Below are positions 3,774 to 13,124 of a stretch of DNA of 25,594 bases, piece after piece. The translations under genes and the position numbers were made by a program. The stretch covers positions 1 through 25,594 of the forward strand of contig JAHRXB010000108.1 of assembly GCA_019104905.1 (NCBI GenBank), written 5' to 3'. Source of the DNA: Bdellovibrio sp. (lineage in GTDB: Bacteria > Bdellovibrionota > Bdellovibrionia > Bdellovibrionales > Bdellovibrionaceae). The number at the start of each line of letters is the position of its first letter. Positions within the stretch are counted from its first letter, which is position 1. Below the pieces are notes generated by a model. The model ran no database searches. It had not been told where the DNA came from and saw only the letters and a list, made by a program, of their open reading frames with translations.

Positions 3774-4073
3774 TTAGTTCATTTTTTTTACACGAATCTT
3801 ATAGTTGTCAATTTTCTTCTTAAGAGTATTGCGATTGATGCCAAGCATCTGCGCTGTTTTCACTTGGTTGCCGTTATAGGCGCGTAACGCCAGCTCCAAA
3901 AGAGGCTTCTCTACTTGTTCGATAACGACGTTGTATAGCCCATTCAATTCAACTTGCGCTTCTTTTTGTTGCGCAAAGAGAACTTCGAGCTTGCTTTTCA
4001 CAAGCTTCTCTAAGCTTACGGACTGAAGATTGGCGACAAAAAGATTATCGGAACTGTTCAGGTTCGGCGTCAT
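3774..4073 (-). CDS. fis: Fis-like nucleoid DNA-binding protein
   Basis: A 99-residue protein the same length as E. coli Fis (98). The C-terminal half aligns with Fis without gaps: a dimer helix region (about 45-65) with VEKPLLELALRAYNGNQ, then the helix-turn-helix TAQMLGINRNTLKKKI (about 74-89). In E. coli Fis the matching parts read VEQPLLDMV and ALMMGINRGTLRKKL. Fis bends DNA, shapes the nucleoid and tunes promoters. A stand-alone Fis is notable here, because in most non-gamma lineages this domain is the tail of response regulators. No receiver or AAA+ domain is present. A GGGAG ribosome site (minus strand, 4078-4082) supports the start. It sits between queE and dnaB. The N-terminal 40 residues diverge, so equivalence of function to E. 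coli Fis is inference. Confidence 0.85.
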   Translation of the reverse strand: MTPNLNSSDNLFVANLQSVSLEKLVKSKLEVLFAQQKEAQVELNGLYNVVIEQVEKPLLELALRAYNGNQVKTAQMLGINRNTLKKKIDNYKIRVKKMN

Positions 4074-4113
4074 GGAACTCCCAAAATTGTCAGCTTAATG
4101 TTGGAGGGACTTT

Positions 4114-4130
4114 CTTTGGTGGAACCAAAG
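4114..4130 (-). other. Short hairpin in the queE-fis gap
   Basis: CTTTGGT (4114-4120) pairs perfectly with ACCAAAG (4124-4130) around a three-base loop, seven bases after the queE stop. There is no T run on the minus strand, so it is not a convincing terminator. Confidence 0.35.
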
Positions 4131-4137
4131 TGTAACC

Positions 4138-4776
4138 CTATACTCCGCGTGTTTCGGAAGACCAAATATACTTATGCAGTTGTAATTGCAACCTTGCAGA
4201 TGAATTTTTCTGCAAAATTTTTTCTGCCAACCAGCGTTCAGACACTTGGCCATATGATGGGCTGTATAAAACATCAAATTTTTCAAATAATTTATGTTGA
4301 CGACAGAATTCTTCAGACCAGTCCAAATCTTTCTCAGAGCAAATCACAAACTTGTATTCTGTTCCTGGAGTGGAAAAGCGGATGTTGTCCATAATAAAAG
4401 AATCTGCAGCACCACTGTCTGGAGTTTTAACATCTAAAATTATTTTTACGCGTGGATCAACAAGCTCAATGCTTTTTGAGCCGCTTGTTTCCAGAGAAAC
4501 CTTGTACCCTTGATCACAAAGAACACTCATGAGGGTGTGCACTTCTTTTTGTAACAACGGCTCACCGCCGGTGATGCAAACATGGGAGGCTTTGTGTGAC
4601 GCGATTTCTTTGAGGAGGCTGTCAAGCTCCTGCATCTCGCCTTCAAAATAAGAATATTTCGTATCGCAATATGTACAACGCAGATTGCAGGCAGTTAGAC
4701 GCACGAAGACTGTGGGACATCCTACGTAGGTCGATTCGCCCTGAATACTATAAAAAATCTCATTTATTTTAAGCAT
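4138..4776 (-). CDS. queE: 7-carboxy-7-deazaguanine synthase (radical SAM)
   Basis: A 212-residue radical SAM enzyme that converts 6-carboxytetrahydropterin to 7-carboxy-7-deazaguanine on the way to preQ0 and the tRNA nucleoside queuosine. The N-terminus has the family start INEIFYSIQGES. The iron-sulfur cluster cysteines are Cys30, Cys34 and Cys37 in CNLRCTYC, and the SAM-binding GGEPLL motif is at 70-75. Length is typical. No other queuosine gene lies in the window, so the pathway is scattered. The start is preceded by AAGGG on the minus strand about ten bases upstream, a rather long spacing. It is divergent from ftsK, about 176 bases apart. Confidence 0.95.
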   Translation of the reverse strand: MLKINEIFYSIQGESTYVGCPTVFVRLTACNLRCTYCDTKYSYFEGEMQELDSLLKEIASHKASHVCITGGEPLLQKEVHTLMSVLCDQGYKVSLETSGSKSIELVDPRVKIILDVKTPDSGAADSFIMDNIRFSTPGTEYKFVICSEKDLDWSEEFCRQHKLFEKFDVLYSPSYGQVSERWLAEKILQKNSSARLQLQLHKYIWSSETRGV

Positions 4777-4902
4777 TTGTTAACGGCCCTTACCTTCAAC
4801 CCCCAGAGGGAGGTCCACAAAGATAGCAGAAACCTCTTTATTGCCACAGAAGCTGCTGATTTATCGACTTTTTTGTCCTGCACCGCCAGTCCTAAGTCAA
4901 GT

Positions 4903-4919
4903 ATGCGCTTCATGCGCAT
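4903..4919. promoter_or_regulatory. Palindrome in the queE/ftsK divergent region
   Basis: ATGCGC (4903-4908) and GCGCAT (4914-4919) form a perfect inverted repeat spaced by five bases. It stands between two divergent genes and could be a protein-binding operator. No regulator is known for it, and a small candidate reading frame covers the same bases. Confidence 0.3.
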
Positions 4920-4952
4920 GACTAACTCTTTGGAATTTCGTAAATTTTTTAA

Positions 4953-7331
4953 ATGAACCAATTCCTTAAAAAGTTCCGACAGGACGTCATTGCAATCAGC
5001 TTTTTGGGTTTGGGGCTTTTTCTCGCCCTAGCCTTGTTTAGTTACAACCCTCGCGATCCCTCGCTGAATTCTATTGGCCAGGGCCTTAGAGCGCTCAATT
5101 ACTGTGGGATCGTCGGCAGCTTTCTGGCGGATCTGCTCTATCAGTTTCTCGGCCTTGCCGCCTGGGTGGTGGTCGGTAGCTTCTTGCGCATGGCGTATGC
5201 CAGTTTTCAGGGAGAGTCTCTGAATCTTAAAAACATTCGCTTTGTGTGGGCTTTGTTGTTGATCGTGAATGTGGCGTCTTTATTGTCGCTGTATTTGCCA
5301 GAAACCAAAGTTTTCTCAGGACAGATCTATTTGGGAGGCCTTTTGGGTTTGGGCGTCTCTCAGGCCCTGATGCGCGCGTTTAACTCTATTGGCGTTCAGG
5401 TGATTCTTCTGTCGTTCATGGCTGTTTTGATTGTGTTCTATTTTGAAAAGTCGCTGCAAGAGTTGACAGAGGCCCCGCGCGGCTTCCTTGCGATGTTAAA
5501 AAAGAAAAAAGTCATGAATAAGATCGCAGCTTTTTTTGCTGGGATGTTTATAAAGGACGAGAAAAAATCGAAAGCAAAAAAATCCGAGACTAAAGAAGAA
5601 AAGCCGAAGTCGGTGTTTCCGTTGTCTGACAAAAAATTTGTTGGAAAAGATGAAGAAGAAGATGAGGACGACGAAGTTGAGGCCGCTGCGGACTTAGAAG
5701 ACGACGAAGAGGCGGACGAAGAAGAAGATCTTGAGGAAGAGGAAGTTCCGGCGGTTCGCTTGGCGCAAAAACGCAAAGTGGTGATGAAAGCCAAACCTCC
5801 TCGTCGCATTGAAAATTGGGACATGCCGAAGCTGGCGCTTTTGGAAGACCCACCCGCTTCTCGAATCAAAATTGATAAGGCCGAAATTCAAAGAAAAGCG
5901 GATTCTTTGGTGGAAAAACTTAAAAACTTTTCCATCGAGGGTCAGATTCAGGATGCCAAGCCGGGTCCCCTGGTGACGATGTATGAGTTTAAGCCCAATG
6001 CGGACGTCAAAATCAGTAAAATCTCGGAGCTGGAGGACGATTTGTCGCTGGCACTTTCGTCAGAATCTGTGCGCGTTGTGGGCCACATTCCTGGAACAGA
6101 CGTCGTGGGTATTGAGACAGCGAATCTGAAGCGTGAGACGGTATACTACAAAGACTTGATCGCTGAAGACACTTTCTGGAGTGAGGATCTTGCTTTACCA
6201 ATGGCTGTGGGTCGAGCCGTCGACGGAGAGCCCAAGGTTGTTGATTTACGCAAAATGCCTCACCTATTGATTGCGGGAACCACGGGGTCAGGAAAGTCCG
6301 TCTTTGTGGGGTCCATCATCACGGGTCTTTTATTCCGACATTCTCCAAAAACGCTGCGCTTGGTTTTGATCGATCCTAAAATGGTGGACTTGGCGCCGTT
6401 TTCTTCAGTTCCCCACCTGGTTTTGCCGCACGTGACAGAACCTAAAAAAGCCGCCACAGCTTTAAAGTGGGCCGTGCGTGAGATGGAAAAGCGCTATAAG
6501 TCTTTATCGAAATTTGGTGTGGGCAAAATCGAGGCGTTCAACGAAAAGACCGGGGCTCTTTCAAAGACGGATATTGAGGAGCACGAAAAGATCAATCAAG
6601 AGTTGGAAGAGGGAAAAGCAAAGCTGGATCAATACTACTACCAGCCACTCCCCTATATCGTCATTGTGGTTGATGAGTTGGCCGACTTGATGATCGTTGA
6701 AAAACAAAACATCGAAGAGCCGATTCAGCGTTTGACACAAAAAGCGCGGGCTTGCGGAATCCATTTGATTTTAGCGACACAGTCTCCGCGCAAGGACGTT
6801 GTAACGGGCCTTATTAAGACGAACATTCCCGGCCGTGTAGCTTTGAAGGTGGCGTCGAAGATGGATTCGCGCATTATCATTGACGACTCGGGGGCGGAGC
6901 GACTTCTTCCCAATGGAGATATGCTTTTCCAGGCACCGGGCGTGGGTAAGCCAACTCGTCATCATGGGCCGTATCTATCCGACAAAGAAATCGGCAATGT
7001 CGTAAAACATTGGGCGGCGCAAGCAGAGCCCGAATACGATCCGTTGGCGATGCGTGCTTTGGATGGTTTTGCCGGTGGAGAGGGCGCTGAAGCCGGAGAT
7101 GCGGGTGGCGCGGGATTTGAGGAAGAAGAGTATGATGAGAGATATGACGAAATCCTTGCATGGACATCTGGGCAGAAGGAAGTGTCAGCATCCTTGATTC
7201 AACGAAAATTCCGTTTGGGTTATCCTCGGGCTGCTCGACTGATTGAAATTTTTGAAAAAGAGGGCGTGGTGGGGCCGGCCAACGGCAGCAAGCCGCGTCA
7301 AGTTCTGGTGAGTAGTTTTAGAGAACAGTGA
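4953..7331 (+). CDS. ftsK: DNA translocase FtsK/SpoIIIE
   Basis: A 792-residue membrane-anchored motor that pumps DNA across the division septum and helps resolve chromosome dimers. The N-terminal region (about 12-164) has four or five hydrophobic segments. Next comes a charged linker with a strongly acidic run (233-265, nearly all Asp/Glu). The motor follows, with Walker A GTTGSGKS (442-449), the IDPK motif (473-476) and Walker B IVVDELADL (569-577). The C-terminal gamma winged helix (about 725-792) contains the LGYPRAARLI element that reads KOPS-type orienting sequences in other species. The linker is much shorter than in E. coli. No ribosome site is visible before the ATG, which follows an A/T-rich stretch, so translation could be leaderless. 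A second gene follows after 73 bases. Confidence 0.97.
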   Translation: MNQFLKKFRQDVIAISFLGLGLFLALALFSYNPRDPSLNSIGQGLRALNYCGIVGSFLADLLYQFLGLAAWVVVGSFLRMAYASFQGESLNLKNIRFVWALLLIVNVASLLSLYLPETKVFSGQIYLGGLLGLGVSQALMRAFNSIGVQVILLSFMAVLIVFYFEKSLQELTEAPRGFLAMLKKKKVMNKIAAFFAGMFIKDEKKSKAKKSETKEEKPKSVFPLSDKKFVGKDEEEDEDDEVEAAADLEDDEEADEEEDLEEEEVPAVRLAQKRKVVMKAKPPRRIENWDMPKLALLEDPPASRIKIDKAEIQRKADSLVEKLKNFSIEGQIQDAKPGPLVTMYEFKPNADVKISKISELEDDLSLALSSESVRVVGHIPGTDVVGIETANLKRETVYYKDLIAEDTFWSEDLALPMAVGRAVDGEPKVVDLRKMPHLLIAGTTGSGKSVFVGSIITGLLFRHSPKTLRLVLIDPKMVDLAPFSSVPHLVLPHVTEPKKAATALKWAVREMEKRYKSLSKFGVGKIEAFNEKTGALSKTDIEEHEKINQELEEGKAKLDQYYYQPLPYIVIVVDELADLMIVEKQNIEEPIQRLTQKARACGIHLILATQSPRKDVVTGLIKTNIPGRVALKVASKMDSRIIIDDSGAERLLPNGDMLFQAPGVGKPTRHHGPYLSDKEIGNVVKHWAAQAEPEYDPLAMRALDGFAGGEGAEAGDAGGAGFEEEEYDERYDEILAWTSGQKEVSASLIQRKFRLGYPRAARLIEIFEKEGVVGPANGSKPRQVLVSSFREQ

Positions 7332-7404
7332 TTTGAGCCTTGACTCTCCCTCCCTTGGTCGTGGTGTGATTAAGACACTAATAAAACCATTCAAGGAGGA
7401 ATTT

Positions 7405-7977
7405 ATGGTTAAGGCTTTAATCGCCGCTCTAGGTCTTGTGTTTTCAGTGAGTGCTGTGGCATCGCCATCTGCATTCGACGTTGTTTCTCAGGTTTCAATG
7501 CCTGCAATTATGGATCAAGCTCAGACAATGGGTTTGGATTGGAAAGTTGGCGATACTGCTAGCTACACAATCGACATGGGATTCATCAAGGGTTCTATGG
7601 TTATGTCTGTTCGTTCAGTAGCTGCTGACGGCATCTGGATGGATCAAAACATGGATCTTGGTTTTGCTGGCAAACAAAAAGTTGAAACTTTGATCGATCC
7701 TAACACTGGCGAAGTTAAAAAAATGCTTGTGAACGGCAAAGAACAACAAGTGCCCAAACAAAACATCGAAGTGATCGAAGTTAAAGAAGACAGAATCACT
7801 GTTCCTGCTGGAACTTTTGATTGCATCCATGCTCGTCTTAAAGACGCTGACAAAAACGAAGAAATCAACGCGTGGATCAACCCACAACTTATTCCTTTGT
7901 CTGGTATGTTGAAACAAGTTGCTCCAAGCCAATTCGGCCAAGTGACTGTTGCTTTGAAATCATACAAAAAGAACTAA
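7405..7977 (+). CDS. Secreted periplasmic protein, unknown function
   Basis: A 190-residue protein with a clear signal peptide cleaved after Ala19 (AVA|SP). The mature part is predicted to be mostly beta strands, with a VPAGTFDC segment near 130 followed by HARLKD. That pattern recalls DUF3108 or LolA-like beta-sheet proteins of the periplasm, but I cannot assign a family firmly. The start is set by the excellent site AAGGAGGA (7393-7400), four bases before the ATG. An in-frame TTG upstream (7333) would spoil the signal peptide and is rejected. Codon choice differs from the neighbours (nearly uniform AAA/GAA/GTT/AAC-type codons), which with the strong ribosome site suggests high expression. 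It is followed by a strong terminator that lies inside the next gene. Confidence 0.88.
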   Translation: MVKALIAALGLVFSVSAVASPSAFDVVSQVSMPAIMDQAQTMGLDWKVGDTASYTIDMGFIKGSMVMSVRSVAADGIWMDQNMDLGFAGKQKVETLIDPNTGEVKKMLVNGKEQQVPKQNIEVIEVKEDRITVPAGTFDCIHARLKDADKNEEINAWINPQLIPLSGMLKQVAPSQFGQVTVALKSYKKN

Positions 7978-7980
7978 TCA

Positions 7981-8847
7981 ATGAAATTGATTTTGATAAG
8001 AGCCACCCTTGCGGTGGCTCTTTCTTTTTCCCCGCTCCTTGCGTTCGCTCAGGCAAAATACTCTAAGTCTGAGACCTATAAAGATATTATCGAAAAGGCT
8101 CACAATTTAATTCTGCAAAGGGATCGGCAACAAGCTCTCAATATTCTTTCTGGAGCCATTCAGCGAGAGATTCGCCCCCAGGCCGTCGCCGAACTGAAGA
8201 AGACGGCTTCTGAAGTTGCAAATGTGTTTTTTAGCGACAAAACGCAGCAGCTTTTTGAAAGCGGTGTCTCTTTAAGAAAATCGGATCTGAATCAGGCCCT
8301 GGATAAAGTGAATGAGGCCGCGCGTATTGAGCCCGATAACTTTTCCATTGTGAATGAACTGGCTCACCTTATGATCGCCAAGGGGGATTGCAAGGGGGCG
8401 CAAGAGTTGGTGCAAAAACAACTGAATCTGGTCAGTTTTGACGAAGACTTAAAGCTGAGCATGGCTCAAGCCCTGGTTTGTCAGGCAAAATGGAGCGAAT
8501 ATCAAAAGATCGCGGACGCCGTTGCCATTAAGAAGTCTCCTCAGCAAAAATTTTGGTGGGCCCTAGAGACGGAAAAGTATTTGAGCCTTAAGAACTTTGC
8601 TAAAGCGCAGGAGTCCTTGGCAAATATGAAAAAGAGCGATGAAAAATACCCGGAATTTTTCTATTGGTTCTGGAGGTTTGATCAGGCTCAAAAGAGAGCC
8701 AATCCCGAAGTTGCACAGAAATACGTGATGACCTGCAAAAACATTTCAGCGAACCAGTATAGACAGTATATGATAGACCCCATGCTTTGCCGTCGCCTCG
8801 CCGAGGTTGAGGGCGATCTTAAGGGGATGAATGGAACACCTGAATAA
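7981..8847 (+). CDS. Secreted TPR-repeat protein
   Basis: A 288-residue exported protein. The N-terminal signal peptide (cleavage near AFA23 or AQA25) is followed by alpha-helical repeats. Residues about 90-170 look like tetratricopeptide repeats (for example ALDKVNEAARIEPDNFSIVN and the KGDCKGAQELV turn), which usually mediate protein contacts. No catalytic motif is seen. It begins three bases after the previous stop and lacks a good ribosome site, so it may depend on translation of the preceding gene. A strong terminator hairpin lies entirely within codons about 7-17, which code for part of the signal peptide. The 3' end overlaps the lptM-like gene by 17 bases, placing it at the head of the dap run. 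An envelope scaffolding role is only a guess. Confidence 0.87.
   Translation: MKLILIRATLAVALSFSPLLAFAQAKYSKSETYKDIIEKAHNLILQRDRQQALNILSGAIQREIRPQAVAELKKTASEVANVFFSDKTQQLFESGVSLRKSDLNQALDKVNEAARIEPDNFSIVNELAHLMIAKGDCKGAQELVQKQLNLVSFDEDLKLSMAQALVCQAKWSEYQKIADAVAIKKSPQQKFWWALETEKYLSLKNFAKAQESLANMKKSDEKYPEFFYWFWRFDQAQKRANPEVAQKYVMTCKNISANQYRQYMIDPMLCRRLAEVEGDLKGMNGTPE
7998..8029 (+). terminator. Strong intrinsic terminator inside the TPR gene start
   Basis: GAGCCACC (8000-8007) pairs perfectly with GGTGGCTC (8013-8020) around a CTTGC loop, extended by two A-T pairs, and is followed by TTTCTTTTT (8021-8029). It matches a textbook terminator for the secreted protein that ends at 7977, yet it lies wholly inside the following coding region. 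Confidence 0.88.
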
Positions 8848-9046
8848 AACGGCCCTCATTTTGATGATATTCTTTGGCCCCCTGGGGTGCGGTGTGAAAG
8901 GGCGTCCTCTTCCTCCGCTAAATCCAGCTCCTTTGGGACGTGGGGAACCCACCTATAAAGAATCCACCCAAAAGAAACCAGCAAAAAAAAGCAATCCTCA
9001 AGTCGACTCGAATGAGAACTTTGGGGATGAGACGGAGGAGCCATGA
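8831..9046 (+). CDS. lptM: LptM (YifL)-like small lipoprotein
   Basis: A 71-residue lipoprotein with a short hydrophobic signal and Cys20 in GPLGC. The mature N-terminus CGVKGRPLPPL matches the CGLKGPLYFP-type start of E. coli LptM (YifL), a small outer-membrane lipoprotein that aids assembly of the LPS transporter LptD. Position agrees too: in E. coli the gene lies directly upstream of dapF, as here. The tail is hydrophilic, with Lys, Pro and acidic residues and no fold. AAGGGG (8821-8826) precedes the ATG. It overlaps the TPR gene by 17 bases and dapF by 4 (ATGA). Sequence similarity is limited to about ten residues, so the assignment rests on motif plus neighbourhood. Confidence 0.8.
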   Translation: MEHLNKTALILMIFFGPLGCGVKGRPLPPLNPAPLGRGEPTYKESTQKKPAKKSNPQVDSNENFGDETEEP

Positions 9047-9900
9047 AAAGCGTCCTGCCGGTGAACATCATCAAGATGTCAGGAGCTGGTAACACGTTTG
9101 CTTTGGTGGATGCACGAAAGAACTCCTCTTGGGAGGCTGTGGAAAAAGATCTGGGAATGTCCCGATCCCGTTTTGCACAGATGATTTGCGATAAAGTGTT
9201 GGGAATTAGCACCGACGGGCTTCTCTTTATTCAAAACGGATCTCAGGGTTTTGATTTTGATTGGGATTTTTATAATTCAGACGGATCCACCGCAGAAATG
9301 TGCGGAAACGCGGCTCGCTGTGCGGCCCGCTTTTGTTACGAAACCTTGCGGTCTTCAGAATCAGCTACGATTAAATTTAATACCGGCGCGGGATTGGTTG
9401 TGGCGCAAGTTTTTGGCGATGATCGAATCCGGGTGCGCATGCCCGAAGCACGCCTCTTGAATGAAAACTTGGAACTAAAAACCCGCTCAAGCTCCACAGA
9501 AAAATTTGTCTTGGTAAATACGGGCGTTCCGCATCTGGTTCAAAAAATACATGAAATAAAAGATGTGGCGAACTTAAAAGAGATGGCTCGGGAGGTTCGC
9601 TCTCATCCTGATCTGATGCCGGCAGGAGCAAACGTCACCTTTTATGTTGAAGATGGGCCGGGAAAGATCAAGGCGGTCACCTATGAAAGAGGCGTTGAGG
9701 ATTACACTCTGGCCTGTGGCACGGGGGCCGTCGCGGCGGCCCTTGTCTATGCAAAAGAACGAGCCCAACGAGAAGTCGAAGTTCAAATGCCGGGTGGCCT
9801 TCTGCATGTGAGTTTTATTGATGGAGACCCCCATCCTCTGATGATGGGAGACGCCGTTTTTGTTGGAGAATTTAAGTACAACCTTGAGGTGGTAAGATGA
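9043..9900 (+). CDS. dapF: Diaminopimelate epimerase
   Basis: A 285-residue cytoplasmic epimerase that converts LL- to meso-diaminopimelate, the peptidoglycan cross-linking residue and lysine precursor. The N-terminal half has MSGAGNTF (12-19) and the catalytic Cys87 in GSTAEMCGNAARC. The second catalytic Cys225 lies in LACGTGA. These two cysteines act as the acid-base pair in known DapF enzymes. Length is typical. GGAGGAG directly precedes the ATG. It overlaps the lptM-like gene and dapA by four bases each (ATGA), indicating translational coupling. Confidence 0.98.
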   Translation: MKSVLPVNIIKMSGAGNTFALVDARKNSSWEAVEKDLGMSRSRFAQMICDKVLGISTDGLLFIQNGSQGFDFDWDFYNSDGSTAEMCGNAARCAARFCYETLRSSESATIKFNTGAGLVVAQVFGDDRIRVRMPEARLLNENLELKTRSSSTEKFVLVNTGVPHLVQKIHEIKDVANLKEMAREVRSHPDLMPAGANVTFYVEDGPGKIKAVTYERGVEDYTLACGTGAVAAALVYAKERAQREVEVQMPGGLLHVSFIDGDPHPLMMGDAVFVGEFKYNLEVVR

Positions 9901-10778
9901 AGAATTTCAGAGGAACTTTCACGGCCCTCGTGACGCCTTTTAAAAACGATAAAGTAGATTATGCGTCCCTAGATCGACTGGTAAAGCAGCAACTGGATGC
10001 GGGCGTTGATGGATTTGTAATCAATGGAACCACCGCGGAAAGTCCCACGCTGACCTCTTTTGAGGTGGCTGAGATTTTTAAGCATGTCCGCTCTTTGTGT
10101 GGTGATAAGGTCCCCCTTATCATGGGAACGGGTTCGAACAGCACGGCGAAGACGATTGAAGATTCAAAGAAAGCTCAAGAGTTGGGTGCGGATGCTGTGC
10201 TGGTGGTTGTTCCCTATTACAACAAGCCTCCGCAGCGAGGTTTGTATGAACACTTTAAGGCGGTGGCTTCGGCCATTTCCATCCCAACAATTTTGTATAA
10301 TGTTCCCGGGCGCACGATCACGTCCTTGGCCGCCGAGACGGTTCGTGATTTAGCAAAAGTTCCTGGTGTGATGGGCATCAAAGAGGCCAGCGGCAAGATT
10401 GATTTAGCACAAGAGATTATCAATGCTTGCGGTAAGGACTTTGTGATGCTTTCCGGGGATGATGGGAGCTACGTGGAGTTCCTAGCGGCGGGAGGCCATG
10501 GAGTGATTTCCGTTGCGACTCATGTTATTCCCAAACAAATGGTGCAGTGGAAGAAGTGGGTATCTGAAGGACAGCTTGAGAAAGCACGCGCTGACATCAA
10601 CAAGTATATGGATTTGATCAATCTTCTTTTTGTTGAGGCGAATCCCATTCCCGTAAAAAAAGCATTACAACTGATGGGAATCCTGGAGTCGGCATCCTTG
10701 CGCCTTCCTCTGGTGGAGCTGTCTCCCGCGCACACGGAAAACTTAAAAGTCGAAATGAAAAAAGTAGGTGTTCTGTGA
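9897..10778 (+). CDS. dapA: 4-hydroxy-tetrahydrodipicolinate synthase
   Basis: A 293-residue TIM-barrel enzyme that condenses pyruvate with aspartate semialdehyde, the first committed step toward diaminopimelate and lysine. Visible landmarks are GTTAES (44-49), YYNKPPQRG (107-115), Tyr134 in YNVPGRT and Schiff-base Lys162 in IKEASG. Length matches the family. It starts in a four-base ATGA overlap with dapF and ends in a GTGA overlap with dapB. Lysine feedback inhibition is common in this family but cannot be judged from sequence alone. Confidence 0.98.
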   Translation: MKNFRGTFTALVTPFKNDKVDYASLDRLVKQQLDAGVDGFVINGTTAESPTLTSFEVAEIFKHVRSLCGDKVPLIMGTGSNSTAKTIEDSKKAQELGADAVLVVVPYYNKPPQRGLYEHFKAVASAISIPTILYNVPGRTITSLAAETVRDLAKVPGVMGIKEASGKIDLAQEIINACGKDFVMLSGDDGSYVEFLAAGGHGVISVATHVIPKQMVQWKKWVSEGQLEKARADINKYMDLINLLFVEANPIPVKKALQLMGILESASLRLPLVELSPAHTENLKVEMKKVGVL

Positions 10779-11464
10779 AGAAGACCAAGATAGGCCTTGT
10801 GGGTGCTTCAGGAAGAATGGGGCAAGAGATCGTAAAGGTGATCGAAGCCAATCCACGCTGTGAACTGTTTTATCCGTTTCATCGCGAAGACAAATGGGAC
10901 TCCAAAAAGGCGGCGATGGTGGATGTGTGGATTGATTTCTCGTCCCCGGAAGCCTTGAAGGATGTTTTAAAAAGAGCGGCTGAACATAAGACGCCGGTTG
11001 TCTGTGGTACGACGGGCTTTTCAAAAAAGGAAAAGGATCTTTTAAAGCAGTACGCAAAAAAAGTTCCGGTTTTATGGTCCTCCAATATGAGTCTAGGCGT
11101 GGCCGTCCTCAATGAGGCCTTGAAGTCCTTGTCGGCGATTTCTCATTTTGATTTTCAAATCGAGGAACTTCATCACAATCGAAAGAAAGACAAACCTTCT
11201 GGAACGGCGATCACCCTTCAAGAAAATATGGAAAAAGCTGTTCAGAAAAAGCTTCCTGAACCTGTCGCCATTCGTGGTGGCGGAATTTTTGGTGTTCATA
11301 AAATCTATTCTATGAGTGATGAAGAAGTTTTGGTTTTTGAGCACACCGCTTTAAATCGCACGGTGTTTGCAAAGGGTGCTGTTCAGGCGGCGGAGTGGTT
11401 GGTCAAACAAAAGCCGGGCCTTTATCAAATTCGTGACGTCCTTTTCGGAAAGAAAAAGGCATGA
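10775..11464 (+). CDS. dapB: 4-hydroxy-tetrahydrodipicolinate reductase (short form)
   Basis: A 229-residue NAD(P)H-dependent reductase, the step after DapA. The Rossmann motif GASGRMG (10-16), DFSSPE (54-59), CGTTGF (77-82) and SSNMSLGV (102-109) are present. The catalytic stretch ELHHNRKKDKPSGTA (131-145) supplies His133 and Lys137, which line up with E. coli His159 and Lys163. The protein is about 40 residues shorter than E. coli DapB (273). Most of the loss lies between the first strands and DFSSPE, where the usual variable region is cut to a few residues. Catalytic parts are intact. Translation starts at GTG in a four-base overlap with dapA. Confidence 0.96.
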   Translation: MKKTKIGLVGASGRMGQEIVKVIEANPRCELFYPFHREDKWDSKKAAMVDVWIDFSSPEALKDVLKRAAEHKTPVVCGTTGFSKKEKDLLKQYAKKVPVLWSSNMSLGVAVLNEALKSLSAISHFDFQIEELHHNRKKDKPSGTAITLQENMEKAVQKKLPEPVAIRGGGIFGVHKIYSMSDEEVLVFEHTALNRTVFAKGAVQAAEWLVKQKPGLYQIRDVLFGKKKA

Positions 11465-11970
11465 GTCCCCATCGCCATTCGACGCTGGTGTATATTGCCG
11501 TGGACTTGGTCGGCGGACAAGAGAAAGCCAAAGATCATCTTCGCAAGTTGGCTGAGTGTGGTGAAATCATTTCGATCTCTTCGATATACAAAAGATATTT
11601 AACCTCAGAACAGCAAGACTTAAGCGCGCGAATGGAGTTTGTAATTCGCTTTGAGACCTACCTGGGGGTTGATCAAATGCTTCACCTGGTTTTGTCTTTA
11701 TGCGAACCGGGGGCTTCGGGTCTTGCACAGAAAAACTATTCAGAGGTGATCCTCCTTGTTTTCGATGATATGATTTTAATGTCGCCGCGGCTGACTCTCC
11801 CCTACCCTCAGATGCACCAAGATCCCCTTATCATCAGATGTTCGGCAGAGGCCTGGGGTCAATATGAGCATCCGATCTATCAAAAGAATTTAAGTGAGAT
11901 TTCTAAGTCAGCACCGTCTGTAAAGCAGGCGGAGTTTTATATGCAGGGTAAAAGCCTGGTTGATTTTTAA
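11461..11970 (+). CDS. HPPK (FolK)-fold protein with lost catalytic residues
   Basis: A 169-residue protein that aligns along most of its length with 6-hydroxymethyl-7,8-dihydropterin pyrophosphokinase (FolK). The N-terminal strand LVYIAVD (9-15) matches E. coli VAYIAIG, SISSIYKR (38-45) matches TVSSFYRT, FVIRFETYLGVDQMLHLVL (60-78) matches the second strand-helix, and PRLTLPYPQMH (109-119) matches ERLTVPHYDM. The catalytic core is missing: the GSN loop reads DLV, the RWGPR segment is absent, and the metal-binding DLD motif reads EVI (95-97). It is therefore unlikely to transfer pyrophosphate. It overlaps dapB by four bases (ATGA), so it is coupled to the dap run. Its role is unknown. Confidence 0.8.
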   Translation: MSPHRHSTLVYIAVDLVGGQEKAKDHLRKLAECGEIISISSIYKRYLTSEQQDLSARMEFVIRFETYLGVDQMLHLVLSLCEPGASGLAQKNYSEVILLVFDDMILMSPRLTLPYPQMHQDPLIIRCSAEAWGQYEHPIYQKNLSEISKSAPSVKQAEFYMQGKSLVDF

Positions 11971-12036
11971 AGCCGGTCAACGTACAAATTGGGTGTATTG
12001 TAACGGTTCAAATTTTCTATTTAACGGGGAGTTCCC

Positions 12037-12684
12037 ATGAAGTTTTTCATCGACACAGCAGAAATTGAAGAAATCAGACAAGCCAACCTTCGTGGCTGGG
12101 TTGATGGAGTGACAACAAACCCGTCTTTGATCGCAAAATCTGGAAAGCCATTTCACGACGTGATTAAGGAAATTTGCAAAGAGATCTCTGGACCCGTGTC
12201 GGCCGAGGTGATCAGTCTGCAAGCCGAAGAAATGTATCGTGAGGGTAAGGAGCTGGCAAAGCTGGCCTCCAATGTGGTTGTGAAAATTCCCATGTGCGAA
12301 GATGGTATGATTGCCGTAAAAAAACTTAAAGCTGACGGTATTAAGACCAACGTCACGCTGGTCTTTTCTCCGATGCAAGCTCTTCTTGCTGCGAAGGCGG
12401 GAGCAACCATGGTGTCTCCCTTTGTTGGTCGCCTTGACGACATTGGCGTTGAAGGTATGACAATGGTTGATCAGGTTATTCAAATGTATCGCAACTATGA
12501 CTTTGATACTGAAGTCTTGGTCGCCAGCGTAAGAAGCCCCATGCATATCCAAATCGCCGCAGAAATGGGTGCTGACATTGCCACGATTCCGTTTAAGGTT
12601 ATGCAACAAATGACTCACCATCCATTAACTGACAAAGGTATTAAGCAGTTCATGGACGATTGGAATAAGGCTCAAAAGAAATAA
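12037..12684 (+). CDS. tal: Transaldolase / fructose-6-phosphate aldolase family (TalC/MipB type)
   Basis: A 215-residue compact TIM-barrel aldolase of the short transaldolase group. Landmarks are MKFFIDTA at the N-terminus, GVTTNPSL (24-31), the Schiff-base Lys83 in VVKIPM, and the C-terminal [11 protein letters not shown] stretch. It transfers or cleaves a dihydroxyacetone unit on sugar phosphates, linking glycolysis and the pentose phosphate pathway. Sequence alone does not separate transaldolase from fructose-6-phosphate aldolase activity. The ATG follows GGGGAG. It begins 66 bases after the FolK-like gene, which shows no clear terminator, and its stop shares one base with the next start. 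Confidence 0.93.
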
Positions 12685-13124
12685 TGAATAAGGCGATTTC
12701 CTGGTTTCTTCTTGGTGTGACCCTTCTTTTGTCCAGTTGCCGAACTGGGGGGGTGATTATTCGCGAGACGCCTTTAAACGCAAGCGAAACGCGCCGAGTG
12801 GTTGTTGGCATCATTGGAGAGCCTCGAACGGTCAGCCAAAATGGGCGAGAGATCTACTCTCGCTATTATGACAAAAAAAATAAGAATATCGAGAAGATGG
12901 ATATGGCGCGTGAACGCTATACCACGCATGTCACCATCCTGGGGGACCGTCGTCCGTATGATGTTCAGGTCGAGGTCCTAGTCGAAGGTCGTAATGTGGA
13001 TGGCGGCTTCGACCTTATAGAGCGCGATGATGATAGGGCGGCGGCCATTGCTGAAAAGATTCGCCAAGCGCTTAACCAAAGTCGCGACACCCGTAACGTT
13101 ATTGACGACTTCCGTTCCTTCTAA
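12684..13124 (+). CDS. Small lipoprotein, unknown function
   Basis: A 146-residue predicted lipoprotein. The signal is short and hydrophobic with lipobox LSSC and Cys19. The mature part begins CRTGGV and then reads as a mixed alpha/beta domain rich in Arg, Asp and Glu, with a helix near 115-135. I recognise no family. It starts on the last base of the aldolase stop codon (TAATG), so the two are co-translated. Any functional link to sugar metabolism is not evident and may only reflect compact packing. Confidence 0.85.
   Translation: MNKAISWFLLGVTLLLSSCRTGGVIIRETPLNASETRRVVVGIIGEPRTVSQNGREIYSRYYDKKNKNIEKMDMARERYTTHVTILGDRRPYDVQVEVLVEGRNVDGGFDLIERDDDRAAAIAEKIRQALNQSRDTRNVIDDFRSF

Follow-up and report, generated by a model that had tools for sequence, protein, structure and literature searches.

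Analysis of a 25,594-nt stretch of DNA from Bdellovibrio sp. (contig JAHRXB010000108.1), which we refer to as the window, revealed a hairpin and T run within the signal-peptide codons of a TPR gene. We consider it likely that this element is the intrinsic terminator of the preceding gene, DUF, and that it produces a step-down between a highly expressed DUF and TPR. This reading is based on the hairpin, the open frame that crosses it, its conservation, covariation and dependence on DUF, and a step in codon bias between neighboring genes. The features involved are collected in Table 1.

Table 1. Features of the DUF-TPR region in the window and three similar genes in genome G002.
Feature	Position	Strand	Basis
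TTGACT box, possible -35 element	7340..7345	+	aligned by eye; in many, not all, relatives
Imperfect inverted repeat GTGT...ACAC upstream of DUF	7364..7378	+	by eye; arms differ in relatives
AAGGAGG Shine-Dalgarno of DUF	7393..7399	+	same seven bases in 26/31 aligned rows
DUF (upstream gene), 190 aa	7405..7977	+	ORF; longer form from TTG at 7333
DUF stop codon TAA	7975..7977	+	sequence, ORF list
TPR gene, 288 aa, TPR_19	7981..8847	+	ORF, Pfam; start codon supported by start-codon scan
TPR signal-peptide codons	7981..8049	+	translation; cleavage after AFA placed by eye
Terminator hairpin, 10 bp, 5-nt loop	7998..8022	+	terminator scan, folding, recoding, covariation
T run TTTCTTTTT	8021..8029	+	sequence, terminator scan
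Synonymous-constraint island, TPR codons 249-269	8725..8788	+	codon identity, alignment
Other G002 genes with a terminator in their first codons	L101:11811-13058, L091:17320-18285, L138:1914-2753		

The gene order, as determined from the ORF list and a Pfam search, is ftsK, DUF, TPR, a small lptM-like ORF, dapF, dapA and dapB, where "lptM-like" is the name given in the preliminary description of this DNA and "DUF" is our working name for the gene upstream of TPR. The ATG of TPR lies only 3 nt past the DUF stop codon. In E. coli, the gene next after ftsK is lolA, which is similar in size to DUF. We found no Pfam match for DUF, which begins with a signal peptide as judged by eye. Because of the gene order and because ftsK of B. 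bacteriovorus is Bd0041 (PMC11318664), DUF probably corresponds to Bd0042 of that species. To assign a LolA-like role to DUF, given its place after ftsK and its lack of a Pfam match, would be a guess. The accessible part of a Bdellovibrio transcriptome study (PMC3627812) contains nothing on the genes of this locus.

The hairpin pairs positions 7998-8007 with 8013-8022 around a loop at 8008-8012, and its first base lies 20 nt past the DUF stop codon. Its predicted stability is -16.7 kcal/mol (z -4.98; equalled in 0 of 200 shuffles), and six of its ten pairs are G-C, which provides the stable G+C-rich stem of an intrinsic terminator. As in such terminators, a T run directly follows the stem; in TTTCTTTTT, one C interrupts the run and the first two bases double as stem bases, and relatives have at least 5 T in 8 in the scan used. 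Together, hairpin and T run span TPR codons 6-17, so that the whole element is inside the signal peptide MKLILIRATLAVALSFSPLLAFA. Sequence, ORFs, scan and folding thus place hairpin, T run and reading frame where the preliminary description had located them; the stem that it gave as 8 bp is present but is 10 bp in length. Its proposal that one stretch of bases serves both as signal-peptide code and as terminator is supported, with both functions apparently kept in evolution, and its statement that transcripts from upstream must pass the terminator to reach TPR follows from the layout, as any transcript bearing the TPR start includes the hairpin. A second, smaller hairpin (7976-7992, AATCAAT-GAA-ATTGATT) was predicted by folding over the TPR start codon; by eye, it is kept in some relatives only, and we rejected it as a conserved element.

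The terminator scan alone is weak evidence, because it found 17 terminator-like sites within positions 4000-13000 while shuffled versions of this region gave a mean of 10.8. The hairpin at 7998-8022 is the richest of the 17 in G-C pairs (six). In a score modelled on that of d'Aubenton-Carafa, the window terminator ranks at the 33rd percentile of 144 intergenic terminators in the related genome G002. The same score ranges from -7.2 to 45.5 across 32 loci with the element, which indicates that terminator strength is not conserved; this wide variation is consistent with a terminator that is leaky in some species and strong in others. No Rfam covariance model matched the window at its gathering threshold, and we accordingly rejected a known RNA family as the identity of the element. 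That the hairpin exceeds chance is indicated instead by its distribution among loci, synonymous recoding and covariation.

We determined the distribution of the element by seeking TPR in 59 genomes, including that of the window. A match was found in 51, and 50 loci were examined, with G056 left out. DUF precedes TPR in 32 of the 50, and a terminator-like hairpin is located at the TPR start in all 32; it lies inside the codons in 31 and spans the start codon in L050, which was nevertheless scored as positive. Among the 18 loci that lack DUF in front of TPR, a strict scan detected nothing beyond two weak hairpins (-7.5 and -5.1). A looser scan, which demanded 4 T in 8 and was run on these 18 of the eventual 25 DUF-less loci, added L039 (-15.3) and L044 (-10.2). 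We then used an out-of-sample set of 18 further family members from 22 new genomes with a match, with four weak or fragmentary members omitted. DUF stands in front of TPR in ten, and the hairpin is present in 10/10, including L246, whose bulged hairpin was missed by the strict scan, found by the looser scan and scored as positive. Seven members have no DUF in front, and the hairpin is present in 0/7 (weak ones of -5.7 and -8.8). In the remaining member, L248, DUF lies 152 nt upstream of TPR with a terminator in the gap, and the locus was placed in neither class. One more locus, L112 of genome G055, was found through DUF; its DUF-TPR gap is 91 nt, and a -17.4 hairpin in the TPR signal peptide, beyond the range of the first scan and found by a later one, was scored as positive. 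In total, the hairpin is present in 43/43 loci with DUF before TPR and in 0/25 without, for which a Fisher test gives 4e-19 if the loci are treated as unrelated; the genomes are related, so the locus counts are not independent. Named relatives identified with the TPR alignment, including B. bacteriovorus strain kdesi, show the hairpin in 9/9 loci, mostly from the same genomes as the main set.

The terminator also follows DUF to other locations. Homologs of DUF occur in 43 of the 59 genomes, and at ten examined loci DUF lies away from TPR. In 6/10 of these, the strict scan detected a terminator 13-26 nt past the DUF stop; L090 has a terminator with a long loop, identified by eye, and 3/10 have none. 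The element therefore behaves as expected for the terminator of the upstream gene, present with DUF and relocated with it. Because it tracks DUF and not the TPR-dap genes, we consider termination of the DUF mRNA to be its most probable primary function.

For a test by synonymous recoding, we generated 2000 versions of every signal-peptide sequence, drawing codons according to the combined usage in the remaining parts of the TPR genes. A terminator as stable as the natural one arose in at most 1.9% of recodings at 29 of the 32 loci; the proportions were 4.6% for L027 and 12.6% for L017, and L050 could not be scored. Covariation was examined in 25 of the 32 loci (24 distinct), with four even-length hairpins and three divergent loci (L032, L047 and L051) omitted. 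Two-sided compensatory changes occur in 8 of 10 stem pairs, with 29 such cells compared to 7.3 in shuffles, and the covariation score of 0.373 (0.176 in shuffles) was reached by none of 500 shuffles. Further pair types stand out less clearly, with 15 compared to 12.3 in shuffles (7/500). Paired cells amount to 97%, compared to 40-63% in slid controls, but this percentage is biased because the presence of a hairpin was a condition for including any of the 25 loci; the evidence lies in the compensatory changes. The comparison that the preliminary description had suggested, for changes in related genomes that keep the pairing, came out in favor of a selected stem. In addition, codon identity at TPR codons 12-19 is 0.89 among 21 genus loci, compared to 0.47 expected. 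Recoding and covariation together reject a chance hairpin.

Codon bias differs markedly between the two genes. With five ribosomal-protein genes as reference and percentiles taken among 983 genes of G002, DUF ranks at the 98-99th percentile and TPR at the 62nd. Upstream of DUF, the arms of the inverted repeat change together in several relatives. A promoter scan listed none at the TTGACT box or elsewhere upstream of DUF.

The step-down model combines these observations with an end of transcription, a fraction of read-through, translational coupling and a promoter, all of which we infer. DUF, with its strong Shine-Dalgarno sequence and high codon bias, would be translated from an mRNA that mostly ends near 8029, and full-length TPR mRNA would be the product of polymerases that read through the terminator. 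One promoter could thereby give much DUF and little TPR. Full-length TPR mRNA has to start ahead of 7981, at the DUF promoter or perhaps at one inside DUF. TPR has no clear Shine-Dalgarno sequence, and its translation probably relies on ribosomes coming directly from the end of DUF. The close packing of DUF and TPR, 3 nt apart, would account for the location of the terminator within the TPR signal-peptide codons. The two codes are compatible: the GC-rich arms specify Ala, and the T-rich tail specifies Phe, Leu and Ser, residues that suit the hydrophobic core of a signal peptide. An mRNA terminated at the T run would include the TPR start codon but no stop codon, and ribosomes that start there would need rescue.

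Control of dapF-dapA-dapB by the terminator is only a possibility, because TPR contains a further conserved island, beyond the terminator, where a promoter could lie. At codons 249-269, codon identity is 0.92-0.93 among the 21 genus loci, compared to 0.56-0.59 expected, and the island could be a promoter or other element for lptM-dapF-dapA-dapB. When patterns from the island were sought in 1.2 Mb of G002, three of four exact ones matched here only and the fourth matched nowhere. A common promoter motif was rejected on the grounds that the island does not recur in this 1.2 Mb, and we name no promoter class.

The main alternative to a step-down terminator is a regulated attenuator, in which ribosomes at the DUF stop or the TPR start set the passage of polymerase, such that TPR, and perhaps the dap genes, would respond to translation or growth phase. 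The spacing gives this idea some appeal: of the 22 genus loci that have DUF, 19 place the hairpin 19-21 nt past the DUF stop (including L023, at 21), the distance is 26 and 27 nt in L017 and L018, and in E. coli a terminator efficiency of 0.12 to 0.8 at a comparable stop distance of 17-18 nt reflects sensitivity to ribosomes (PMC4824070). The supply of transcription to the terminator also appears to change with the life cycle, because the Bd0042 protein, which is reported to carry a secretion signal, shows an increase of 2.15 log2 four hours into predation (PMC12546842, Table 1). Outside the genus, however, the distance is variable and extends up to 78 nt, and we saw no fixed spacing there. 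Furthermore, an attenuator should be conserved with the downstream gene that it regulates, but this element is lost with DUF where TPR stays, as 0/25 TPR loci without DUF in front have it. We also identified no leader peptide or competing structure in an unsystematic search. On balance, regulated attenuation seems unlikely.

The preliminary description had suggested a particular form of attenuation, relieved by translation that starts at TPR, and this form is not supported so far. In E. coli, terminators that occupy the first 100 bp of a coding sequence are efficient, and translation initiated at an AUG 30 bp upstream reduced this efficiency by only ~10%, whereas a stop codon nearer than ~27-30 nt represses termination (PMC4824070). 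By analogy, ribosomes that end DUF, more than those that start TPR, could tune read-through, because the DUF stop lies 20 nt before the hairpin and the effect of a nearby translation start is that small in E. coli.

A less probable alternative is that most polymerases pass the hairpin, which would mainly protect or shape the 3' end of the mRNA or its translation. The T run is interrupted or weak in several loci (e.g., G002-like, with scores of 0.2-2.7), and the hairpin is positioned just beyond the region that a ribosome would cover when bound at the TPR start; both points favor such a role. Against it, a T run follows the stem in 43/43 loci, even at distant loci where the stem differs, and the terminators of relocated DUF genes have the same form. 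We regard this role as improbable.

Finally, we considered whether the TPR start is misannotated, owing to the precedent of S. flexneri gluQ-rs, where the database start inside a terminator was wrong and the true Met lies 27 nt downstream (PMC3542578); translation from beyond the hairpin would make the TPR terminator simply intergenic, but this is very improbable because the window offers no in-frame ATG, GTG or TTG past the hairpin until codon 82, which lies beyond the conserved motif ETYKDIIEK, and because the frame is open across the element with a peptide that retains signal-peptide form. Among the 32 loci, 21 have no start codon between hairpin and conserved motif and six have one, and in five the search pattern did not recognize the motif. 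TPR homologs without DUF have signal-peptide-like starts too, as judged by eye. The hairpin overlaps the annotated start region of TPR, as in gluQ-rs, with no usable start after it in the window, and TPR translation very probably starts before 8030, as the preliminary description had assumed.

We also asked how often terminators occupy gene starts in this family, using three 400-kb pieces of G002 (1.2 Mb, 1,048 predicted genes) and eight 50-kb pieces of E. coli K-12; gene calls in both surveys and in the codon-bias rankings came from a simple purpose-made gene finder, and starts are uncertain. In G002, strong terminator-like hairpins numbered 13 within the 104 kb that make up the first 100 nt of genes (5, 6 and 2 in the three samples), 9 within 876 kb of interior coding sequence and 30 within 1,040 kb of antisense sequence. 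The third sample is poor in such hairpins (2). The E. coli pieces gave 1 in 32 kb of starts, 4 in 286 kb of inner sequence and 4 in 336 kb of antisense sequence, and the single start-region hairpin is the gluQ site, which the control scan found unprompted.

An embedded terminator is present in 7 of 272 close same-strand gene pairs in the 1.2 Mb of G002. Codon bias is higher upstream than downstream of the terminator in 7/7 embedded pairs, and higher in the first gene in 148 of 265 other close pairs, and the mean step in codon bias is 45.3 percentile points, compared to 3.6 (permutation p 0.0007). Five of the seven upstream genes rank at or above the 83rd percentile, and the others rank at the 46th and 4th, the latter in a pair with a GTG start of doubtful reading. 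By a crude rule, downstream genes have signal-peptide-like starts in 4/7 embedded pairs and 121/265 other close pairs, and we rejected signal peptides as a preferred home for terminators, since they are not over-represented. Three other G002 genes (at L101, L091 and L138) encode two lipoproteins and one protein with a hydrophobic start, each with a terminator 19-23 nt past the previous stop. Orthologs of these pairs keep a hairpin of -10 or better in 21/23, 23/23 and 6/10 genus loci examined, where 10 of 17 matches were examined for the third pair; in this survey, the hairpin of L186, from the window's own genome, lies upstream of the chosen start, and L161 was read from a broken frame.

We put forward a broader reading tentatively, as possible but doubtful: start-embedded terminators would be a habit of the family, ribosomes finishing DUF would tune read-through, and non-stop mRNA would steadily feed rescue. 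If true, a dual code at gene starts would step expression down between close neighbors in Bdellovibrionaceae, and TPR output would depend on the translation of a predation-induced secreted protein.

Irrespective of that broader reading, the covariation across a family of predatory bacteria indicates that a terminator can persist in translated signal-peptide codons while the upstream gene stays adjacent. The site is a natural case in which to study how termination, translation and read-through coexist on one sequence, and it calls for caution in the synonymous recoding of gene starts. The arrangement of a highly expressed gene, an embedded terminator and a weakly expressed gene is a rule that could be sought in other compact genomes. 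In open-licence literature, we recognized no report of a conserved terminator in signal-peptide codons, which is weak evidence of novelty.

Several described systems share parts of this arrangement. Like the pyrBI attenuator (PMC4824070), the element would terminate near translated sequence and is possibly sensitive to ribosome position; unlike attenuators of that type, it has no known leader peptide or regulatory signal and follows the upstream gene. Internal terminators with read-through include those upstream of dnaG and at recX, the latter with about 10% read-through (PMC3542578). As proposed for TPR, one promoter there serves two genes with a terminator between them and a lower output of the second, but those terminators, as named in that source, are between or upstream of genes. 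The constructs of PMC4824070 also feature a hairpin and U tract in the first codons of a frame downstream of the stop of another gene; they were engineered in E. coli, whereas the site described here is natural and conserved. The nearest described case is dksA-gluQ-rs of S. flexneri and E. coli, in which the second gene is reported to depend on the promoter of the first and on read-through, and mutation of the stem raised expression >2-fold (PMC3542578). There, too, a terminator stands at the head of the next gene, but for gluQ-rs the annotated start was in error and the true one is located past the hairpin, whereas the TPR start precedes a hairpin that is fully translated as signal peptide and covaries across a bacterial family.
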